The notes under the pieces: generated by a model
The model's database searches: none
What the model saw: the letters and a program-made list of their open reading frames with translations, nothing else
Told to the model about the DNA's origin: nothing
Translations under genes and position numbers: made by a program
Source of the DNA: Sipunculus nudus
Taxonomy: Eukaryota; Annelida; Sipuncula; Golfingiida; Sipunculidae
Reading direction: 5' to 3'
NCBI GenBank assembly: GCA_026874595.1
Contig: CM049314.1
Coordinates: forward strand, 13,260,729 to 13,324,728
DNA length: 64,000 bases
Shown here: positions 29,549 to 41,631 of the stretch, piece by piece
Numbering within the stretch: position 1 is the stretch's first letter
How the letters are laid out: every line of letters starts with the position of its first letter

Positions 29549-29552
29549 TTAA
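29549..29552. other. Left TTAA target-site duplication
   Basis: TTAA at 29549-29552 flanks the left terminus; the right copy is at 41628-41631. The empty allele in unit A (TTCAA context) shows a single copy. Confidence 0.85.
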
Positions 29553-30094
29553 AGGGATAGTCTCGTCTCCTGGACTTGGGCTTAACGTCCTCCGACGCTA
29601 TGGCCCAGTCAGGGAGCTGGCTATATTTAGAATACGACTTCAGCAAGCCAGCACCAGTGACAGCAGCTGAAGTTACAGCACTGGCGGTATCAGTGGGAAG
29701 CTATGACGCGTTCTACGCATGCGGGGTTCGGGCGTTTCCTTGGTTACGAAGAACGCGATCTGTTCGTTGACAGGGTCTGTCACTTGTCGTGTTGCTGATG
29801 GCGGCGTGTAATTAACCCATGGCTGTCCTGAAGTCTTTACAAATGAATCACAGGAAGTTCATGACCCCTGTGCCTGGCCCTGTTAATTCAGTAATGTTTC
29901 AAAGAATCGCCTTTTCACACATTTATCAGCCATACCGGCTGCCCCGATCTGGCACTACTATACTAGTGTCAGTTCTGCAAGGCCTTCATCTGATCTCGCG
30001 TCCACTAAGCTGTCACGACTATATATCTAAACAAAACCTTCCACTGGAGTATTCATTCGATTCCCGTTTTGGTTTCACTCGCGTAAGCCTAAAG
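29553..30094 (+). promoter_or_regulatory. Left subterminal region, presumed promoter and 5' leader of the ballast gene
   Basis: GC-richer than the surrounding host DNA. The reading frame of the downstream exon stays open back to an ATG at 29819, so the true start could be there instead of 30095. A second open frame at 29576-29770 has no domain and is not called. A promoter function is expected from the position only. Confidence 0.4.
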
Positions 30095-31045
30095 ATGTCA
30101 AGACAAAATCAAGAAGCAAGTGACAAAAGTGCGTGTTCTTGCGGGAACATATGTAACCGGTCCGGTCGTCGGAGGGGGGCTTGTCCGTGTCTCACTGAAG
30201 AGAATTTCTGCACGGATTCCTGCAACTGCGGGGTGGCCAAAATGGGTTGCACAAACAGACCTGGTCACCCAAACTCTGTTTTGTCGACTAGACTGGGAAT
30301 GCAGGTAGAGGAAAACAATGATGGAAATTATGGAAGTGATGAGGAAGAGACAAGCAACGAAATGGAGGTAGGCCTGGAGCCCATGAACTAACTAATTTTG
30401 GAAATATTTAAACCTTTAGGGCCTATATATATATATACGTGTGTGTGTGTACTTTTGACAAATTTATTGTAATTTGGTCGTGTAATTACAAAATATTTCA
30501 TACAATTTTTGTAGGCAGTGTATTAGCTTGATGTATTCGTTATAATTTTTTTTAGAATATGTATCAGTATAGGCCTTCACGTATATTTAAATTTACTGAA
30601 GCCTTTTTTACAGGTTTCGGTCCAGTAATTACGACATCAGTTTTAGAGACCCGAGTGAAAAGAATGATTTATAATGATTGAATTTGACCCATTAAGTTTT
30701 TTTTACAACACAGACATTATCCAGAATAAATTATGAAGGTTTTTTTTAAATGTTTTCCTATTATTTATTCTGGAAGTAAATGTTATATTCAAAATGTAAT
30801 AGTTTAATATATGCAAGACCATGCTTTTTTTAAGGCTCCAGTACTGTTTGTTCGGTTTGAAGAGGAAGGGGAGAACATTTCAACAGTGACAGTCCCTGAA
30901 GAAGTAGATTTGGATAGAAGCCTACAGGAACTAGCAGACGACCCCAAGTATTCGGTAAGTTATAAATAATTTTAAGTAAACACCTGCAGGGGCAACTGAT
31001 TTTATAAATGTTTATTCAGTATATATATGAACTATTTTGTGTATG

Positions 31046-31102
<57 letters not shown>

Positions 31103-32342
31103 TTTATACTCTGATATATTCAAATACCTCCATATGTAACGAATATATACACCAATATATACACATCTATATATTATAAAAACAAACACTGAAATTATAT
31201 ATAAATATACAGATACATAGATAAATATAGATATATACAAGATAAGTTCTAGTTCTCCTTCAGTGAAAAATTTCTATTTTTTTAATAACTACACAAAATA
31301 AAATGACTACCACCGTCCCAACCATGTAAATATATATATTTATGTATATAAAATATATATATATATACATGTATAACAGCTAATACAAAACTTGTGCAGT
31401 GTATAAGGATATCTTCTTCACTTTTTTTGGACATACATAAAACGTATGCTTTACATTCTATATTTTGTTTAGGTTTCCATGCCTGCTGTTAGAACAGAAC
31501 AAGGGAGCCCAAGTGTGTTAACAGAAAATGAGCCACAGTCAACAGGAGACATGGAACATCCTGCAGTTGATAAGGTATAGTATTTCAGAACTAACATATG
31601 AATAGTCACATGATTAGGTTTTCTAGGCAACTTTCAGAATGGAAAAGAGAAATAATAAGGATAAAAAAATGACAAAATGAATAGTTACATGATAAGGGTT
31701 TCTAGGCAACTTTAAGAATGGCAAAGAGAAAATAATAAGGATCATAAAATGACAAAATTATTCAAATTGACCCATAATTGATAGACATAAAAATTTACTA
31801 TTTTTATTATTCTTTTCTTTCAGTCTGTTTTTTCTGACTGGGATGCTGGAAAACTGAAAAAGTTCGCTGAATTTGCAATCACACAGTTTCCACAGTTGAT
31901 GAAGTTGGCAGGAATACCCATGCCACCAGCTGGTACCCCGCCACCCTCACAGAGTCCAGAACCAGGCTCTGGCGCCCCTGAATGGTGTCATTGTGGCAAC
32001 TGTCGCCCAATGCCAACCCTGAGGGAGCGCCTGTGCTGCAGAAAGAGAGCGGGGCCGTGCTTGTGTGTCACCTCAGCACAGGAGTTGCAAGAAATTGTGC
32101 TCCACAGAGGAGTGTTGGAGGTGGCACTCAATGTCAGGAATGACATTTTTGTTTATGACAATGAGGCAAACAACAGGAACCTACGATACACAGCATACAG
32201 ACAGTATGTTGTTTGGAAATACGGTTACCTGGGCAAGGGTAACCGTGTTGTTATCCCTAGTTGTGTAACTTGGAAAATCAGGGATGCCTTCCCAGAACCT
32301 GATGGGACATATGTGGGGTTCACTGTTGGACGACTCCAGTAA
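30095..32342 (+). CDS. Transposon accessory gene: CXC-like cysteine cluster plus P2X7-type ballast domain (4 exons)
   Basis: Exons 30095-30367, 30835-30954, 31473-31574 and 31824-32342 all have GT/AG borders and phase-0 junctions, giving 337 aa (start MSRQNQEASDK; an upstream in-frame ATG at 29819 would add 92 residues). Residues about 9-50 form a cysteine cluster (CSCGNIC...CPC...FC...CNCG...CTNR) like CXC/TSO1 or E(Z)-type zinc-binding, DNA-binding regions. Residues 92-165 are acidic linker. From about residue 165 on are DWDAGKL, a proline stretch, then WCHCGNC..MP....CCR, YRQYVVWKYG and NRVVIPSCVTWKIR...G.YVGF. This is the pattern of the zinc-binding cytoplasmic ballast of P2X7 receptors. 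There is no channel portion. A DNA-binding or transposition-accessory role is inference. Confidence 0.8.
30368..31823 (+). other. Introns of the ballast gene
   Basis: Three introns (30368-30834, 30955-31472, 31575-31823) lie around the two small exons. The second contains a (TA)n array (31050-31095). The third contains a tandem duplication of about 79 bp (about 31599-31757, 'tttctaggcaacttt' twice). Confidence 0.7.
31050..31095. repeat. (TA)n microsatellite in intron 2
   Basis: TA array within the second intron of the ballast gene. The 74-codon ORF on the - strand here is an artefact. Confidence 0.9.
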
Positions 32343-32726
32343 CTGAACTATTTTATTTCCTGTTTTCTAAATGTAATCATATATTTCCTTGCATGTGGCT
32401 CATAACATTATAAATTTATATAACAAGTGAATGCATTTGTTGGGGTTTTTTTTAGATACACTGGATTCTATTTTAAATACATCTGATTTGCACTGCAATG
32501 AACTAAAGTCATTAGCCAATAAAGATAACAATCTATCAGGGTCCCAAAATTTGCAGTGCAGAGGCTAAAAAGTACATTGCGACCCCTGAACACTGCAGCT
32601 CTATAAATAAGAAATGAAAAAAGAAACACGGAAATGTTTTTATGTTTGAAATACATAGAGATGTATGAAATCAGAATGTTGTATGAGCAAAAATAACTTT
32701 AATACTATTAATTGGCCAGTCTAAAT
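32343..32726. other. Intergenic space between the two convergent transposon genes
   Basis: 384 bp between the two stop codons. It must hold both polyadenylation regions; an 'aataaa' lies at about 32519 on the + strand. No other gene is seen. Confidence 0.5.
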
Positions 32727-33811
32727 CTATTTTTTACTGTCTGGTGTAGTGGGACCTTTGCCCTTTCTCTGTAAATATGCCTGTTCCAAAGACTCCGCTG
32801 ATGGCTTTGGCTTTGCCGCAATGTGAGGCCTAATATGTGAAGGATCCCCAGAGATGGGTTGGGGCTTGGAGTCCATTCTGTCTACAGAATAGCTTCTTTC
32901 CTCCAAGATGTCAGCCAGCAGGCCTGGCACATACAAGTATTTTTTTAAATCCTTGTATGGAACAGCTGTCCAGGTGGATGCAGCTTTACTGTATCTATGC
33001 CTCAATCTGCAATTATAAAAAGTGCACATATTAAAAAAAAACATGTAATCTTCAGTTTCCATCTTCATGATAGAAACTTCCTATCAGTTGATTTAAATTT
33101 ATTTTTAAGTCTTGAATAATATGTCCTATGATGATAACTTTGTCATTGGGGGGGGGGGGAATGTTATGGGAAAAGCTTAAATGAATTTAGAGACTATAGT
33201 CAATACCTGAGTAGCAACTGGTTTCTTTACTGTTTAAATTCTAATGTTACATGATGCCCACCACAATCTATGATAACCGTTCACATGGTTCCATCACAGG
33301 AACTGATTTATATCCTGTTTAAATTCCAATGTTACAAGATATTTCCCACAATCAATGATGATCTGAAACATAAGCCAATATATCATACCTCACATTCCCC
33401 TCTTTGTCCTTCACTGGCTGGCGGTGGTTGTGTTCATTGTGGTCGATAGCAGCCAGGAGGTTTCTAAGAATATAGCCTCTGTAGCTGCATTAAAAAGATA
33501 ATAATCAGTAATGAATTACATATGATTATGCATGTTTATTAGTACTTGTATCTTGAAGAATGATACATTAGAACAATACAACACATTGTTTACCTTATAT
33601 TATGTTTTTTTTTCTTAAAAGGGTACAATGTTCCTCCGCTTTTTTATTCAAGGATGGGACCTGTCATGACTGCATGAAATATATTTTGTATCAAAATGTG
33701 AGGTCACAAAGCTTCAATTCTTGAAATCAACTAAATTTTTGCAGTGCATCATTCATGCAATGTCAACATAATACATAATCATATAGCATTTCATATCAGA
33801 CATCACAAAGA

Positions 33812-33860
<49 letters not shown>

Positions 33861-36800
33861 CTTAATTCTGGTTCTTACATAAGCAAGAATGTAGTCATTT
33901 GAGTTGTACAAGAGGTATGCATATTTCTTTATGTTATAAATGTGCTTATTTCAATCATGTGATTCTGGTAAACCCTCATACTTCTGTGTGTTTTATTATT
34001 TGATACGTTTTCTTTATCATTAGAATACGAACAGGCATCAAGTTTACACAAATGTAGTTAGGTATAATATTTGGCAAATGTTTGTTTTACAATAATCAGA
34101 TATGTGAAAAAAGACTTCCATATCAATTCAGTCATTCTGTCAAATAAAATGAGTTTTCAGTAATTTTGTAGATTGCCAGAAATTTTCAGGCATTTTACAT
34201 ATTGCCGGAAATTTTCAGGCATTTCACAAACTGACTGAAATTACACATTGACTATAACAAATATATATATATATATACGTTTTATTTACATTTGTTTTAT
34301 TTTAAATATTATATAAAAAACTACAATAATAAAAGAATTTTATCATTTTCACCTACAGTAAAACTTTTGTTAAAAATATGTCTGCAGGTCAAGACAGTCT
34401 CTGTTATTTGCAAGTTACCTGAATGAGCTTCTTTTTGGGCAATACATCAAGATGGTTGAATGGAAGTGCTCCAGGAGACTGGTGTGTCTGAAACAAAAGC
34501 AATCATGAGACAGTTACATTTTCTTTTCTCAAGCTGTGCCTAATGCCCTTAATAGTACTTGCCCTACATCCTCCGGCCCTTACACTGTACAAAGTCAGTC
34601 CTAAAAGCCCTGTACACTTTCACAAGCATCAGCCAAACTGGAAAGAACCACAGCCTTTTATTTGTTTAAAAATTTGGGCCTGAAACCCTGTGGTGAGGGT
34701 GTTTCATAAATAAAATTCAGCATTTCTAGATGCTGCCAACAAATTAATCTATAAATAAATCTTTGGTAACTAACCAGCTTTACACCTAAGCATATTATAT
34801 TTCAATATCATGAAATGAAAGAAATGTTTGCACTGTGGAAGCTTTCACACTGAACTATAGTGCCTATTATTTCATGAATGATTTGTTGTATTCTTGCATA
34901 TGACAATTATTAACCTACTGAAAACATGACAACACAGACATAACAATTTGTACCTGAAGTTTCTGATGTATTTCAGATTTCTTAGTATATTCACCGACAT
35001 AACTTCTTTCACCACAGCTTTATGAGCCGGTGACTCTGGCTGTAGCCACGGCTTCTGCGTTTCACTTGGTGGCAAGGGCAGTGGATGGTTGCAGTGGCCC
35101 TCAGTCAGGTCATACATGGTGGCCATCCAAGTATGAACATTGCAGATGTGGTGTAAAACTGTAACCCAGTTTTCCTTAAATAAATACACAAAAGGTTCAT
35201 TGTCAAATAGTTGTAGTAGCTGCATTATTTTCTAAGACCGCTTTTATCTGGATACAAAGTATTTTTACTGCAACAGCATTATCTAAATTCTAATAGATAT
35301 TTTTTTTTTTTTTGCTGATTTTGTATCTGGTGGTTATAAGTTGTACTGTAATACAATGAATCACATACTGCTTATCAGGATCTTTCATATTTCCATATTT
35401 TTACAAACTAAGCTGTAAATGATTTATTGCAAAAAAACTGTGGCTTATGTTATATTTTAAACATTTAAATGGGTAAAATTGAAAAAAAGCTTTAACTGGA
35501 AACCATTATTATGTCTATAGATATGCCTAAGTATGTTTATATATTAATATATACCTTTAGATGCTGTTCATTCCCTTTACAGTTCTGTGCACAATGCCAA
35601 AGGTGGTTCCTGATTGGCTGCACCCACTGGAATATGTCACCACATCCTCTCTGTTTACCAGCCTAACAAATGATAAAAGATATATTTAACAAGTACCTCA
35701 AAGATATATACAGGTTACACAGAAACAAGTACCTCAAAGGTACATACAGCATACACAGAATTTTGATATTGAATGCATGTTTTTAAATGATAATTATAAA
35801 TCAAAGTATCTGTAGTCATGTTTTTTTTAATTAATTACATACAGGTCACTGAATATATAACCAAAATATTAGCTGCATGATGTTTAAATTGAAACTTGAA
35901 TAATTTATGTAAAACAATTAATTCCTTTAATATTACTTTTATTTACCAAACAGTTCTCCTGCAAAATTTACAGGAAGCTGGGTACTCACTGCAATTAATT
36001 TCTTTGTCAGGGACTTGCTCATGTGCCACACATCAAACTGGTGTAGGATGTCAGTGTGCACATTTTCCAAAGAAAACAAACATACAAAAACAACCTTTAT
36101 CTCAAGCTTTTGTTTGGAAAGCTGGTGCAATAGGGCTCAGCATGGACAAAGAAACACCAAATTAGAAAATCAGTGTGTTACAATTTGGAACATTAAATAC
36201 ACATTACACCTAAAGCCTGTGCATAGCTGCTGGGAGTTCAGATCCTGTAATAATTTCTAAGAGAAATCTGAAATCTCTGGGGTTGCACCGTAATATATCA
36301 TCCACTTGTTGTTGTTTACATTCAAACCGAGTGGAATTTGTTTTTCCTTAATATCAGCTTATAATTAAATATAGATAAATTTTACATTAAAACTGTCAGT
36401 TCAATTTATAAAGTAAAAGTTACAGACAGTTCCTTTTGCAGCACTATCGAATGGTATATTTAGTGTAAAATAACTCACTCATTAGAGCCTTTATTTGTGG
36501 ATGGGCATCTGTCACAATCTCTGCAACAGCAGCTTTCTCTCTGATCTCATTGAGAGCTCTGGTGAAGCCGATCTTTTCCATGTTGGGGCTCTTCCCATCA
36601 GCTTCACGGACATCCACCACTTGGAGGGACAATATATTCCCAGTGGCCACATCCATCATGCTGTAAGTGCAGTATTGAGCACTATAGCCTGGTGAGTCGT
36701 TCCTCCCATCTCCTGCTAGTACCAGAGGCTCTGAGGCAGCATTTAACAACAAACTCTCTTGCATATCTGTCCAGTAGCGCTGCACTGCTGGATACACATA

Positions 36801-39800
36801 AAGTCTCTGAATACTGGAAAGAAATTAAGAATGGTGGTGTTGATATGGAAAACTTCGGTAGAAAGTGTGCACATTACACTCTGCTTTTCTAAATATATCT
36901 TGCTAATGGGAATAATGAAAGAGTGACATCTTAGAATAGAAATTTAATAGTAAACAAGAACTGTGTCAGGAATGGTTGAAAACAGGTTGATTATTCTGAA
37001 TAAATAATTTTTTAACTTAATAAATATTGATTTATATATACAATGCATTGATAAATGAATTATGAATATATTTTGAATAACATGGATATATTAAGTCACC
37101 AAAGTTTCAGTTAATTAGCTGTTAATGATTAGTATGCTTTACATGTAGGCATGTTTTTAATATAAAATAAGTTATTGAAATATATAGTGGAAGTTCAGCT
37201 AACCGGTAGTGACTATCCTTGTTAATGAATCCTAGTTTTAAAAACTTGGCCATCAGAGCTACTTTTGTGTAGCTATTGCCTGATATAATAAGGCAAGCTG
37301 GGACAAGGATGTTCCCAGCAAACATTCCGGTCGTTCTTGGCTGAGATGTCCAGGAGCCCGCATGGTGACTGCTGTCTGATGGACACCGCCAAGACACTAT
37401 CAAGCAGGTTCCCACCATCTTGTTTGTAAACTCCAACCCGTTTCTACACTTGCAGCATTTATTGCCAACAGCAGCTTCCACAAGTTTCAACACAGAAGGC
37501 ATAAAGGCAATGCACTTCTGAGTTGAAATAGCCTCGTCTATTTCCACTTTATCTGGCCCAAATTTGGTATTGGCACCACTGTTGTTCATAGGAACTTCCC
37601 AATCAGGATCTTCAAAATCAGCAGCCACATCATCCTCACTGGATCTAAGAAAATATTTTTTAGAAAGTATCAAACAGTTTAGCACTGAATAACTAATATA
37701 ATTATCATATTCTACAAATAAGTTTTTCTCATGACAGGTGCAGTTTATTTTGAGACTAAAAAAATAAACAGTCTTACTTTTGATATATCCTTTTTGTATT
37801 TTTTTTTCAACAATTTGAAAAAATTCCTCATATTTTATGTATACTGCAGTGACAAAGATACTGATATTAACTGTAAGAATATTACATGCATGAAAGATTA
37901 AATCATATTAACTCATGGCATTTCTATAGACTTACACCTCATCCTCTGCACAATCAGCGCTATCGTCTGAACCCAAATCATCCAAAGCCTCAATACCACT
38001 CAGATCACCCTCTTCTATGTACTCACTACAAGGTAAACGTTTATTGTGACTGTGAATAGGTAAACACGAGACTGTAGACAGCTTGGTATGATGAACAATC
38101 ATTAAACATTATAGTTAAACATACTACATCACAAGAACTGCTGGACAAGGAGCTAGTATTTGAGAATATGCATAATAATAATTAACTAAACACTGGATAA
38201 TAAGCAATGTATGTATTTTGTTTTAAATCATCAAAAGCACATGAAAGGTTGTTTCAGCACTTGTACATGATTTGTGCTAGTCACAGATTAAGGACATATA
38301 TATGGTTTATAAACAAAAAGCAATAAAGCATACCTGAATGTAACAGGGCCTGTACCACCTCTGCTTGGTGTTGATGTGACCAATCCTAGTCTTGCTCTTG
38401 GATTTATTCTAGGCACTGCCAAAACAGGACTCATGACCGGATCTGTTTCTTGGCCTGATAACAAAAAAAAATTATAATAAATTTTATATGTCCAACCTGC
38501 ACTTGAAAGTGGCCAATACTGCAGTAACCAGGAGTGAACAGAAATGAAGCTTTGCTTGTTATATATCTTAAAATTCAAGAAATGCACAATTCCATGAGAA
38601 GTTAACGGGTGAAACAAAACTGCCGGTACCTATTTAAGCCCATGTATAATCCAATTCCAAAAGTACACACAGTACCAGTTGTTTACAATTCAACTGCAGA
38701 ATTACTGTCATAAGACTTGTAATTAAATATCATGGTTACAGAATTGAAAATGTAAATGATACGTGACATACTTGGTGTCATTGTACCAGTCAATGGAAGC
38801 CTGATTGCCCTTTCCGACCTGAAAATAAGAGAAATTGTGAAGAATGTTATATATGGGAATTGTAAACTTATTATCTTTTTACGGTATATCATACCATAGC
38901 AGTTATAATTCAGTGATCTTTGTAATCAAAATCATATTCTGTAAATAAACAAATTCAGATTGAACATTTGTAACCCGAACAGGTGATATTCAAAACTTTT
39001 AAAAGCATTCTTTTATTGGAGCAGATGTTTCTTTTGTGATTATGAATTGAAGACATGGGACTATCTTTTCATGTATTTTTATGGAACCTGGAAAGTATTC
39101 ATGCTAATGGCAAATGAATAGTCTGTGTTTCTAATGCATCCTGATACTTGGAATGTCCAAATGATTAATGACTACCGGTACCCCAGCATGGCTGGTTTAT
39201 CCTAGACATGACAGGAATGCAGTGACCTGGTAACCTAAGGTCAGGAAAAGGGCAGCCCCTGACCCAGATCTTTTGACACAAACAAGTTATAATATAGTTT
39301 GATAAACTTCATGTTTTTGTGCTTTGTCTATAAAATAAATTTGAAAGTGCTGATATATATATTAACATCATGTATTTTTATCAATTTATATTCCAAATAT
39401 AAATCTAGTTATTAACAATTTACTTTAACAATCAGTCTGTGGTATTAGAATGATATGCGAGTTTTAGGTAGCCAAGACTTCCTGATCAATACAATTTTTT
39501 TAACCATCTCTGGCTTAGGTTGAGAACATATGACATACTTATCTAATGGCTTCACAGGGGTTTCATGAATATATGGCTGTCCTGGATATAGTCCTGGCTG
39601 CTTGGGGGGTACATATAGCACCTCTTCTTCATTCTCCCTTCCACCACTTTCAGACCCAAAGCTCTGGTAAAGCTGGTACTTCTGTGTACCTGATGTCGAG
39701 GCCTCACTAGCGCTAAAATATCATTAAAGCCACACTAAGATTTTAATAACTTAATTGGTTATCGTTGTACTATAAACTTCATGAAAGATTATGTATCACT

Positions 39801-40738
39801 ATCACAGTATCTAAGCTCGATTTACTTATACTGCCTCCAAAATTTGGAGTTGCATCCTGTGACAGATTGTAATATGATTATCACGTGTATCCAGTGTTTA
39901 ATAAAAAATTCAATTTGCCACCAGTGTCTATCAATGTCAAAAATGAAAATTTCACATTCTAGTGCAGTGTAACTATAGATCTATCTTCTGAACAAAAAGA
40001 ATGACTCGATCAAGTGCCTTGAGTTGTACTTGAAATGTACAGAACCAAAATTAATTTTTTTTTAAATAGAAGAAGAATGGTGAAATATGTCTTCTTATGA
40101 AAATGGTAAATAAGTGCAGTACATGTGACTTTGCCAAAAGCTGGCTTCCTTACTGATTGTCTTGGGGCCTGACGTTGGTATTCAATTCAAGTACGTATGT
40201 AACTTCAGTCTAGGCCAGGACAACCTTACTGATGGTCTGTCCTTTTTTTTCTTGCCCCAACCTGGAACCTACTTGATGTCTGAATGGTGATTTTATCACT
40301 CAACATGCAAATATTTCTAAAAGATTCACATAAAAGAAAAAAAATCATACTTGATTCATACGAAAATAAATAAGTGTAAATAATGCCAGTTTGCGGCATA
40401 TCAACTATACTGCACATTTACCAATACTATTTGTACTGCCTGTTAAAAGTTGTTAAAAACATGCCTCACCTCTCTTGTACTTGGTCGGGGCAAACGGAGG
40501 AATGAGACAATGGCATATGAAAGCACCTCGCCTCGTTCACAGCCAAGAGATGGAGAGCCCGTTCTGACGCGGACTTGTATCCTTCAAGGATCCGCTGCCT
40601 CTCCCATTCTTCCCACGCTTCTCCAAGATAAACACGTTTTTGTTCATAACGTTTCTTTCGTATAGCTTCTGCTTCTTTCGCTTCTTTATCAGAAGCATAT
40701 TTTCGTCGTCTTTTCGGAGGGTTATCAGCTGACATCAT
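32727..40738 (-). CDS. Kolobok-like DDE transposase, 13 exons, about 775 aa
   Basis: From the ATG at 40738 (an in-frame ATG also lies at 40780) I placed exons 40470-40738, 39539-39712, 38772-38818, 38334-38454, 37936-38025, 37204-37644, 36479-36813, 35990-36066, 35555-35662, 34954-35174, 34419-34487, 33389-33484 and 32727-33006; the sum is 2,328 bp, a whole number of codons. The N-terminus is basic and helical (PPKRRRKYASDKEAKEAEA). Residues about 234-380 hold a zinc-type cluster (KCCKCRNG...SWRCPSDSSHHAGSW). The catalytic core follows: GDGRND (Asp about 416), IVTDAHPQI (Asp about 483), HQFDVWH, a Cys-rich W..NH.WHC stretch and HTSLLEHFHS (Glu about 634), then ILMYCPKR. All junctions are GT/AG except the acceptor before exon 8, where GG stands at 36067-36068. 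Confidence 0.8.
33130..33388. repeat. Short tandem duplication in transposase intron
   Basis: Two diverged copies of about 88 bp (containing 'gtttaaattc.aatgttac') lie at about 33214-33388, preceded by an 11-base G run near 33149. They lie in the last intron of the transposase gene. Confidence 0.55.
33817..33858. repeat. (TA)n microsatellite in transposase intron
   Basis: TA array in the intron between transposase exons 11 and 12. Confidence 0.9.
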
Positions 40739-40789
40739 GAGACTATAACGAGTCAGATTCCGCACAAGTACGACATGCATAGGTTACCC

Positions 40790-40997
40790 AGCAACAGTTG
40801 TTATGCCGGAAACGTCATTTCACGCCTCTTTTATAGTAAGAGCTAAAACTTGGACGTCCGAGTACAGGTGACGAATACTCATAACCAATCCGTGGGTCAC
40901 AAAAACAACGTCATATTGGTATAAGCATATATCTTTTTCATTATCACCCCAATATTTATATATATATATATGAGATGGATTTTATACATAAGCATTG

Positions 40998-41049
<52 letters not shown>

Positions 41050-41614
41050 TTGGTAAATGATAGATCTTATTCATAATCACCACACTCAAAAATTTGAATG
41101 TACAATTTGCAGTAATATATATAGGTTAGATAGTATGAAACGGTATAAGGAATTAAAAAAACTAATGTTTTTACTATTTTCTAAAATACAACATTACAAT
41201 AACAAGAAATTCGATATAATTTAAAAATTATTCGATTTTTTGTATAAAAATAAATTATAAATGATGATCTGTAATTGCAACTAATGAACATGTGATGTGT
41301 GCAAAAGCTGTAAAAAAATATCCAAGACACCTCTGTTACAATTGACTAAAACATTATTGCATGCATTCAATACATCTCGACTGCTTTACAATACAGGAGC
41401 GTTTATAATTGTAGTACATTTTACATAGAAACATACGGGAAATGTGATTTTTTAATGTTGAACAAAGCAATGAGTTCAGAGTTGCAGCAGTAAAGCATGT
41501 AGTCTAGGTCCACTGAAACATCCGCAACCCGCCTCCGACTTCCGGGTTTTAACCAATTACTAGTTTGAAAAACGAGGACTGCGCCATCTGGTGACTGTTT
41601 CAGGCAGGCCAGCG
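40790..41614 (-). promoter_or_regulatory. Right subterminal region, presumed promoter and leader of the transposase
   Basis: Noncoding sequence between the right terminus and the transposase start, with two (TA)n tracts (about 40957-40972 and 41001-41051) and an AT-rich stretch. The last 100 bp (41515-41614) are GC-richer. A promoter is expected here from gene orientation; no specific element was recognised. Confidence 0.4.
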
Positions 41615-41627
41615 CGAGACTATCCCT

Positions 41628-41631
41628 TTAA
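41628..41631. other. Right TTAA target-site duplication
   Basis: TTAA directly after the terminal CCCT, duplicating 29549-29552. Confidence 0.85.

Follow-up and report, generated by a model that had tools for sequence, protein, structure and literature searches.

How does a gene with a P2X7-type ballast domain come to lie beside a transposase gene in the genome of Sipunculus nudus (GCA_026874595.1; 1.43 Gb, 153 contigs)? The question is raised by a 12,075-bp element at positions 29553-41627 of a 64,000-bp stretch of this genome (G000:C9:13260729-13324728), which is referred to here as the window. The element is very probably a Kolobok DNA transposon of the two-gene Kol0 kind, encoding a transposase and the ballast protein KolX, that inserted recently and belongs to a family with few full-length copies. 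Such elements have been described before: according to the accessible parts of Kojima and Bao (2022; PMC9587614), Kol0 elements encode a transposase and a second protein, KolX, which resembles the ballast region of P2X7 including its seven cysteines. The element is a further member of this published kind, and the pairing of the two genes is itself not new.

The initial annotation had described perfect inverted ends beside TTAA, and this description is borne out by the following boundaries:

29549..29552, no strand: left target-site duplication TTAA (sequence; TTAA pair test)
29553..29565, + strand: left 13-bp terminal inverted repeat AGGGATAGTCTCG (sequence; pair test; genome-wide exact matches)
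41615..41627, - strand: right 13-bp terminal inverted repeat, AGGGATAGTCTCG inverted (sequence; pair test)
41628..41631, no strand: right target-site duplication TTAA (sequence)

The two ends match in 13 of 13 bases next to the TTAA. Among the 77,762 TTAA pairs of the window that lie 2-20 kb apart, no other pair exceeds 8 matching terminal bases, the number reached by the runner-up. The 17-mer TTAAAGGGATAGTCTCG, which combines the TTAA with the end, has 12 exact occurrences across the 1.43-Gb genome, against none for a control pattern read backwards. The termini of the element (5'-AG ... CT-3') fit the 5'-RR ... YY-3' criterion for Kolobok, whose 5'-RR ends are unlike those of piggyBac in the account of PMC9587614; the 4-bp TTAA duplication and a DDE transposase with a C/DxxH signature are likewise Kolobok features. 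Apart from the inverted repeats, no subterminal repeats common to both ends were found (8-mers in common: 4, compared with a mean of 4.2 in shuffled sequences).

Two multi-exon genes converge within these boundaries and, as originally annotated, end 384 bp apart, KolX at 32342 and the transposase at 32727. KolX is located on the + strand and consists of four exons with GT-AG junctions, which encode 337 amino acids (aa) from the ATG at 30095. The frame is open upstream to 29816 and contains earlier in-frame ATGs, so that the start codon is a matter of choice.

30095..30367, + strand: KolX exon 1, CXC-like module with nine cysteines (residues 14-52), plus an acidic tail (gene model, genome search)
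30835..30954, + strand: KolX exon 2 (gene model)
31473..31574, + strand: KolX exon 3 (gene model)
31824..32342, + strand: KolX exon 4, P2X7-type ballast domain (residues 208-332) and stop codon (PF20478; P2X7 structures)

The assignment of the C-terminal domain, first made from the sequence without a profile, is confirmed by the Pfam model P2RX7_C (PF20478), which matches residues 208-332 of the 337-aa protein with an E-value of 3.3e-39 (135.2 bits; cut-off 23.5). A search of solved structures with KolX yielded four confident matches, all of them P2X7 (E 1.9e-25 to 7e-24), and two further matches that represent noise (E 0.25 and 0.96). All seven zinc cysteines are kept (C220, C222, C225, C236, C237, C246, and C312 of KolX, corresponding to C477, C479, C482, C498, C499, C506, and C572 of rat P2X7). 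The presence of these cysteines, of R546 and R578, and the C-terminal position of the domain are shared with the ballast of P2X7 and with the “ZCD” proteins of PTHR36981, including Nanor (PMC7016195). By contrast, KolX lacks the P2X channel, and three residues of the nucleotide site of rat P2X7 are replaced (H547 by Y, R574 by T, and K583 by E). Rump et al. (2020; PMC7016195), who described the ancient ballast domain, report in the accessible part of their paper that invertebrate ballast domains generally keep only R546 and R578 from that site; they also call E496 conserved across Metazoa, a position that aligns with an arginine in KolX. Relatives of the ballast domain in viral contigs were not confirmed by the scan. 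Intron 3 of KolX holds a 79-bp tandem duplication (window 31598-31758).

The transposase gene occupies the - strand from 40738 to 32727 and comprises 13 exons:

40470..40738, - strand: transposase exon 1, basic N-terminus, THAP domain not found (gene model, Pfam)
39539..39712, - strand: transposase exon 2 (gene model)
38772..38818, - strand: transposase exon 3 (gene model)
38334..38454, - strand: transposase exon 4 (gene model)
37936..38025, - strand: transposase exon 5 (gene model)
37204..37644, - strand: transposase exon 6, cysteine-bearing upstream domain (gene model, family comparison)
36479..36813, - strand: transposase exon 7, first and second catalytic D (GDGRNDS, VTDAHP) (gene model, genome search)
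35990..36066, - strand: transposase exon 8, DVWH (C/DxxH) signature (boundaries from sister copies)
35555..35662, - strand: transposase exon 9, H/C-rich stretch (gene model)
34954..35174, - strand: transposase exon 10 (gene model)
34419..34487, - strand: transposase exon 11, presumed catalytic E (LLEHFHS) (gene model; E kept in two divergent families)
33389..33484, - strand: transposase exon 12 (gene model)
32727..33006, - strand: transposase exon 13 and stop codon (gene model)

The D-D-DxxH-E signature appears in this order, with GDG at residue 415, VTD at 481, DVWH at 527, and LEHFH at 656 (numbered on a model with 23 residues too many in exon 8), and its motifs recur in two families that are 44-59% identical to the transposase of the window in exons 6 and 7. 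A zinc finger between C/DxxH and E is a Kolobok criterion that holds for almost all lineages except Kolobok1. In the same position, the transposase of the window carries an H/C-rich stretch (HLWHCAQNCKGNEQH...HHICNVH), a candidate for such a finger. Kolobok transposases usually possess an N-terminal THAP domain, as stated in the accessible part of PMC6004289; Pfam scans of parts of the transposase, including the N-terminal 164 aa, gave no match to it. The accessible text does not name this domain among the defining traits of Kol0.

Close relatives of the element are present on another contig. Two sister copies (C10:28200278-28212378 and C10:28212383-28224485) are arranged head to tail with one TTAA in common; they show no mismatch among 12,101 aligned bases (2 gap columns), and in the alignment of either one with the window copy, 16 of 12,058 bases are mismatched (60-62 gap columns), with the coding sequence of KolX untouched. 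The tandem dimer as such (C10:28200274-28224489; L043-L046) may have formed when a new copy inserted at the TTAA of one already present, or by tandem duplication, or may be an assembly artefact; a dimer of identical copies with one common TTAA is possibly a new observation.

Genome-wide, the left end was found at 24 places and the right end at 15, and nine elements with exact termini emerged from 12 places. KolX is kept in four of the nine, namely the window copy, both C10 copies, and one on C5 that has decayed; it was not detected in the other five (on C1, C8, C17, C2, and C3). The copies on C1, C8, and C17 hold transposase remnants with stops, and neither KolX nor transposase was detected in the exact-termini copies on C2 and C3. 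Copies with the same termini but without the ballast gene had been named in advance as a finding that would speak against the two-gene element; such copies do exist (five of nine), yet all five also lack the DDE exon. This exon is present in three of the nine elements, and KolX accompanies it in each. Because all carriers of the DDE exon have KolX, the KolX-free copies look like ordinary non-autonomous derivatives. Ten additional end pairs (C17:58447421-58453179 and others on C1, C5, C7, C9, C10, C11, C12, C15, and C16) have the same left end and a right end that is 67-80% similar; the length is 5.8 to 7.4 kb in seven of these ten derivatives and 1.1 kb in another, and the genome searches for the ballast and the DDE exon gave no match in any of them.

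The association of the two genes extends beyond this family. The genome contains at least 32 ballast matches, which merge to at least 29 loci, and at least 47 matches to transposase exon 7, which merge to at least 44 loci (both lists are lower bounds). Among the matches listed, 19 of the 29 ballast loci have an exon-7 match within 10 kb, where 0.018 are expected, and all 19 linked loci are convergent. They are not independent of each other, since three of them are copies of the window family, two form a mirrored pair on C5, and several others are near-copies at further places. Together with the near-identical copies, the convergent linkage supports the proposal of the initial annotation that Kolobok-like transposons carry the ballast domain from place to place, a view that had already been published (PMC9587614).

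The linked families have diverged considerably, and the two genes have done so to a similar extent. Between the window family and the linked family at C2:79, which has a stop in exon 11, amino acid identity is 57% for the ballast (nonsynonymous divergence, dN, 0.40) and 59% for transposase exon 7 (dN 0.39); the corresponding identities to the family at C5:66 are 49% and 55%. For none of the four comparisons does synonymous divergence (dS) fall within the range of the method, and differences are most frequent at third codon positions. Both genes have probably been under selection across a long divergence. Applied to the families at C2:79 and C5:66, the simple TTAA test did not reveal their ends.

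In the region C5:66230116-66243815, a different KolX-transposase family is present as two copies in inverted orientation, and their matches mirror each other exactly about position 66238036; no palindrome between these copies turned up in the central 2.5 kb. Five compact and similar loci (C15:55671401, C8:41089794, C11:24582054, C10:21220031, and C12:5857281) make up a second KolX group, which is more distant, each with a diverged ballast tail located approximately 1.7 kb from the transposase match, all in convergent orientation.

Exon 1 of KolX encodes nine cysteines within residues 14-52, and a genome search with this exon returned 15 matches at 12 loci. A ballast match lies within 5 kb at seven of them (the window, two on C10, C5:20374, C13:34.33, C5:66.23, and C2:79.13, the last with a weak exon-1 match, E 0.0013); of the five loci without a nearby ballast match, four carry stops and one (C17:23410709) is open. 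The order of the nine cysteines, which ends in C-x-N, agrees with that of two CXC fragments of the same genome (L071 and L072) and of the Tesmin/TSO1-like CXC domain (PF03638), from which the module differs in its longer loops between cysteines 3 and 4 and between cysteines 8 and 9. The cysteine spacing pattern, which was set after the sequence had been inspected, fits all three members tested and was reached by 0, 3, and 0 of 200,000 shuffles. The Pfam CXC model itself matches only weakly, in three of six family members (best E 0.014). The module is termed CXC-like here rather than CXC. The term “CXC” does not occur in the main texts of PMC9587614 and PMC7016195. A search of solved structures with the A1 profile produced only chance matches to a fatty-acid receptor.

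We infer that the transposition machinery includes KolX as its second protein and that KolX is not host cargo. This possibility had been raised in the initial annotation, and it gains support from the recurring linkage and the similar divergence of ballast and transposase exons. In such a machinery, the DDE transposase would excise the element at TTAA and reinsert it elsewhere, providing the catalysis while itself lacking a recognisable THAP domain. The nine-cysteine module of KolX might contact DNA, either the ends of the element or the target, and the ballast domain might act as a zinc-stabilised assembly or regulatory module, perhaps in a nucleotide-bound state. A more specific version, which we put forward tentatively, is that KolX constitutes a dedicated DNA-recognition subunit of Kol0, whose CXC-type module reads the DNA of the element or target in place of THAP and whose ballast assembles or nucleotide-gates the complex. 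If true, P2X7 would owe its cytoplasmic tail to what was once the assembly module in a transposition machine of two proteins. That P2X7 later captured the ballast exon from such an element has been proposed in print. The conserved cysteine module turns DNA binding by KolX into a testable hypothesis, and the near-identical copies with open KolX offer a practical start for asking what role the ballast had before its use in a receptor.

Several results weigh against an intact element whose two proteins act together in this manner. The acceptor of transposase exon 8 (36068-36067, - strand) reads GG in the window copy and AG in both C10 copies, and a cryptic acceptor upstream gives an exon that is 23 residues longer and open by chance; because of this difference from its sisters, the transposase of the window copy is probably mis-spliced at exon 8 and the copy probably not fully autonomous. 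Whether the ballast gene always accompanies the transposase was a check proposed initially: the two are together at the 19 linked ballast loci, all convergent, but 25 of the 44 transposase loci listed have no ballast match, some of them being short or carrying stops. Conversely, 10 of the 29 listed ballast loci have no exon-7 match within 10 kb; at two of these ten (the decayed C5:20374 and C12:31251282), further transposase exons are close by in a matching arrangement. The ballast was also not found within 7-8 kb at each of two related transposase loci outside the window family (L069, which carries stops in its transposase exons, and L070). As for the N-terminal module, the suggestion that the 337-aa protein contains a CXC domain fails at the level of the profile and retains only the agreement in cysteine order: exon 1 of the window KolX scores 8.1 bits against PF03638 (E 4.6), below the cut-off of 23.5; a Pfam scan of the whole KolX gave no match to this model; and none of the six places listed by a genome search with PF03638 is a KolX exon.

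The loci L069 and L070 would also fit the view that KolX rides along as a passenger, having been a host ballast gene that one transposon family captured, and has no role in transposition, as would the derivatives that retain the same ends without detected KolX, although these lack the DDE exon as well. This explanation is improbable in view of a convergent pairing that recurs across divergent families (19 of 19 linked loci), with both genes similarly diverged, and of a Kol0 lineage that is defined by KolX and known, as far as PMC9587614 was accessible, from vertebrates, annelids, cnidarians, and sponges. Even less credible is an old pair of neighbouring host genes, independent of any transposon. 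Rump et al. reported an “ancestral synteny” in which two markers are linked to ballast genes from sponges to molluscs, arthropods, and echinoderms (PMC7016195, accessible part). The locus of the window, however, is situated between TTAA-flanked inverted repeats and has three near-identical copies distributed over two contigs, with two arranged in tandem, and the synteny is more likely to reflect the gene content of the transposon itself. The main text of PMC7016195 contains no occurrence of “transpos”.

An affiliation with piggyBac, which has the TTAA target site in common with Kolobok, can practically be dismissed: the purine-purine termini (5'-AG), the C/DxxH signature, and the presence of all seven cysteines are at odds with it, and the Pfam scans returned no match to a piggyBac-type domain. 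The preferred assignment to Kol0 is consistent with the type element Kolobok-1_XT of this lineage (PMC9587614), which is alike in its TTAA, 5'-RR termini, DDE transposase with C/DxxH, and the ballast of KolX. Compared with the published Kol0 elements, that of the window represents another family, with a length of 12 kb, 4 + 13 exons, and no detectable THAP domain; the orientation of KolX and an N-terminal cysteine module are not stated for Kol0 in the accessible part of PMC9587614. Possibly new, as far as the searches reach, are the nine-cysteine N-terminal module of KolX, a transposase in which no THAP domain is detectable, and the genome-wide convergent layout. Among the matches listed by the literature searches, there was no further relevant paper on KolX, on Kolobok and P2X7, or on ballast and transposons.

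The origin of P2X7 from such an element is a published conclusion: PMC9587614 derives the receptor, in its accessible part, from a P2X4-like gene that fused with KolX, and regards Nanor as probably a domesticated KolX. The present data agree with the acquisition of the ballast domain by P2X7 from an element of this kind. The 22 P2X matches in the genome are clustered on C7 and C10, none of them near a ballast match, which agrees with the report that the combination of ballast and P2X is found in vertebrates only (PMC7016195, accessible part). In a small unrooted tree of ballast domains, P2X7 is placed among KolX ballast domains of the longer kind and is separate from a second set, at a support (94/97) below the threshold; this tree, which has a long-branch warning at the P2X7 split and six rows that are less than half filled, and from which L025 was left out, is not used as proof. 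With this element, the published link between P2X7 and Kolobok gains a well-resolved and recently mobile example, not a discovery.

An unrelated observation concerns the assembly. Nine stop-free frames of cytochrome oxidase I, each of approximately 577 aa, are present on C60, C61, C62, C66, C72, C74, C75, and C89, at positions up to 3.2 Mb, which suggests that the assembly includes bacterial genomes of symbionts or contaminants.

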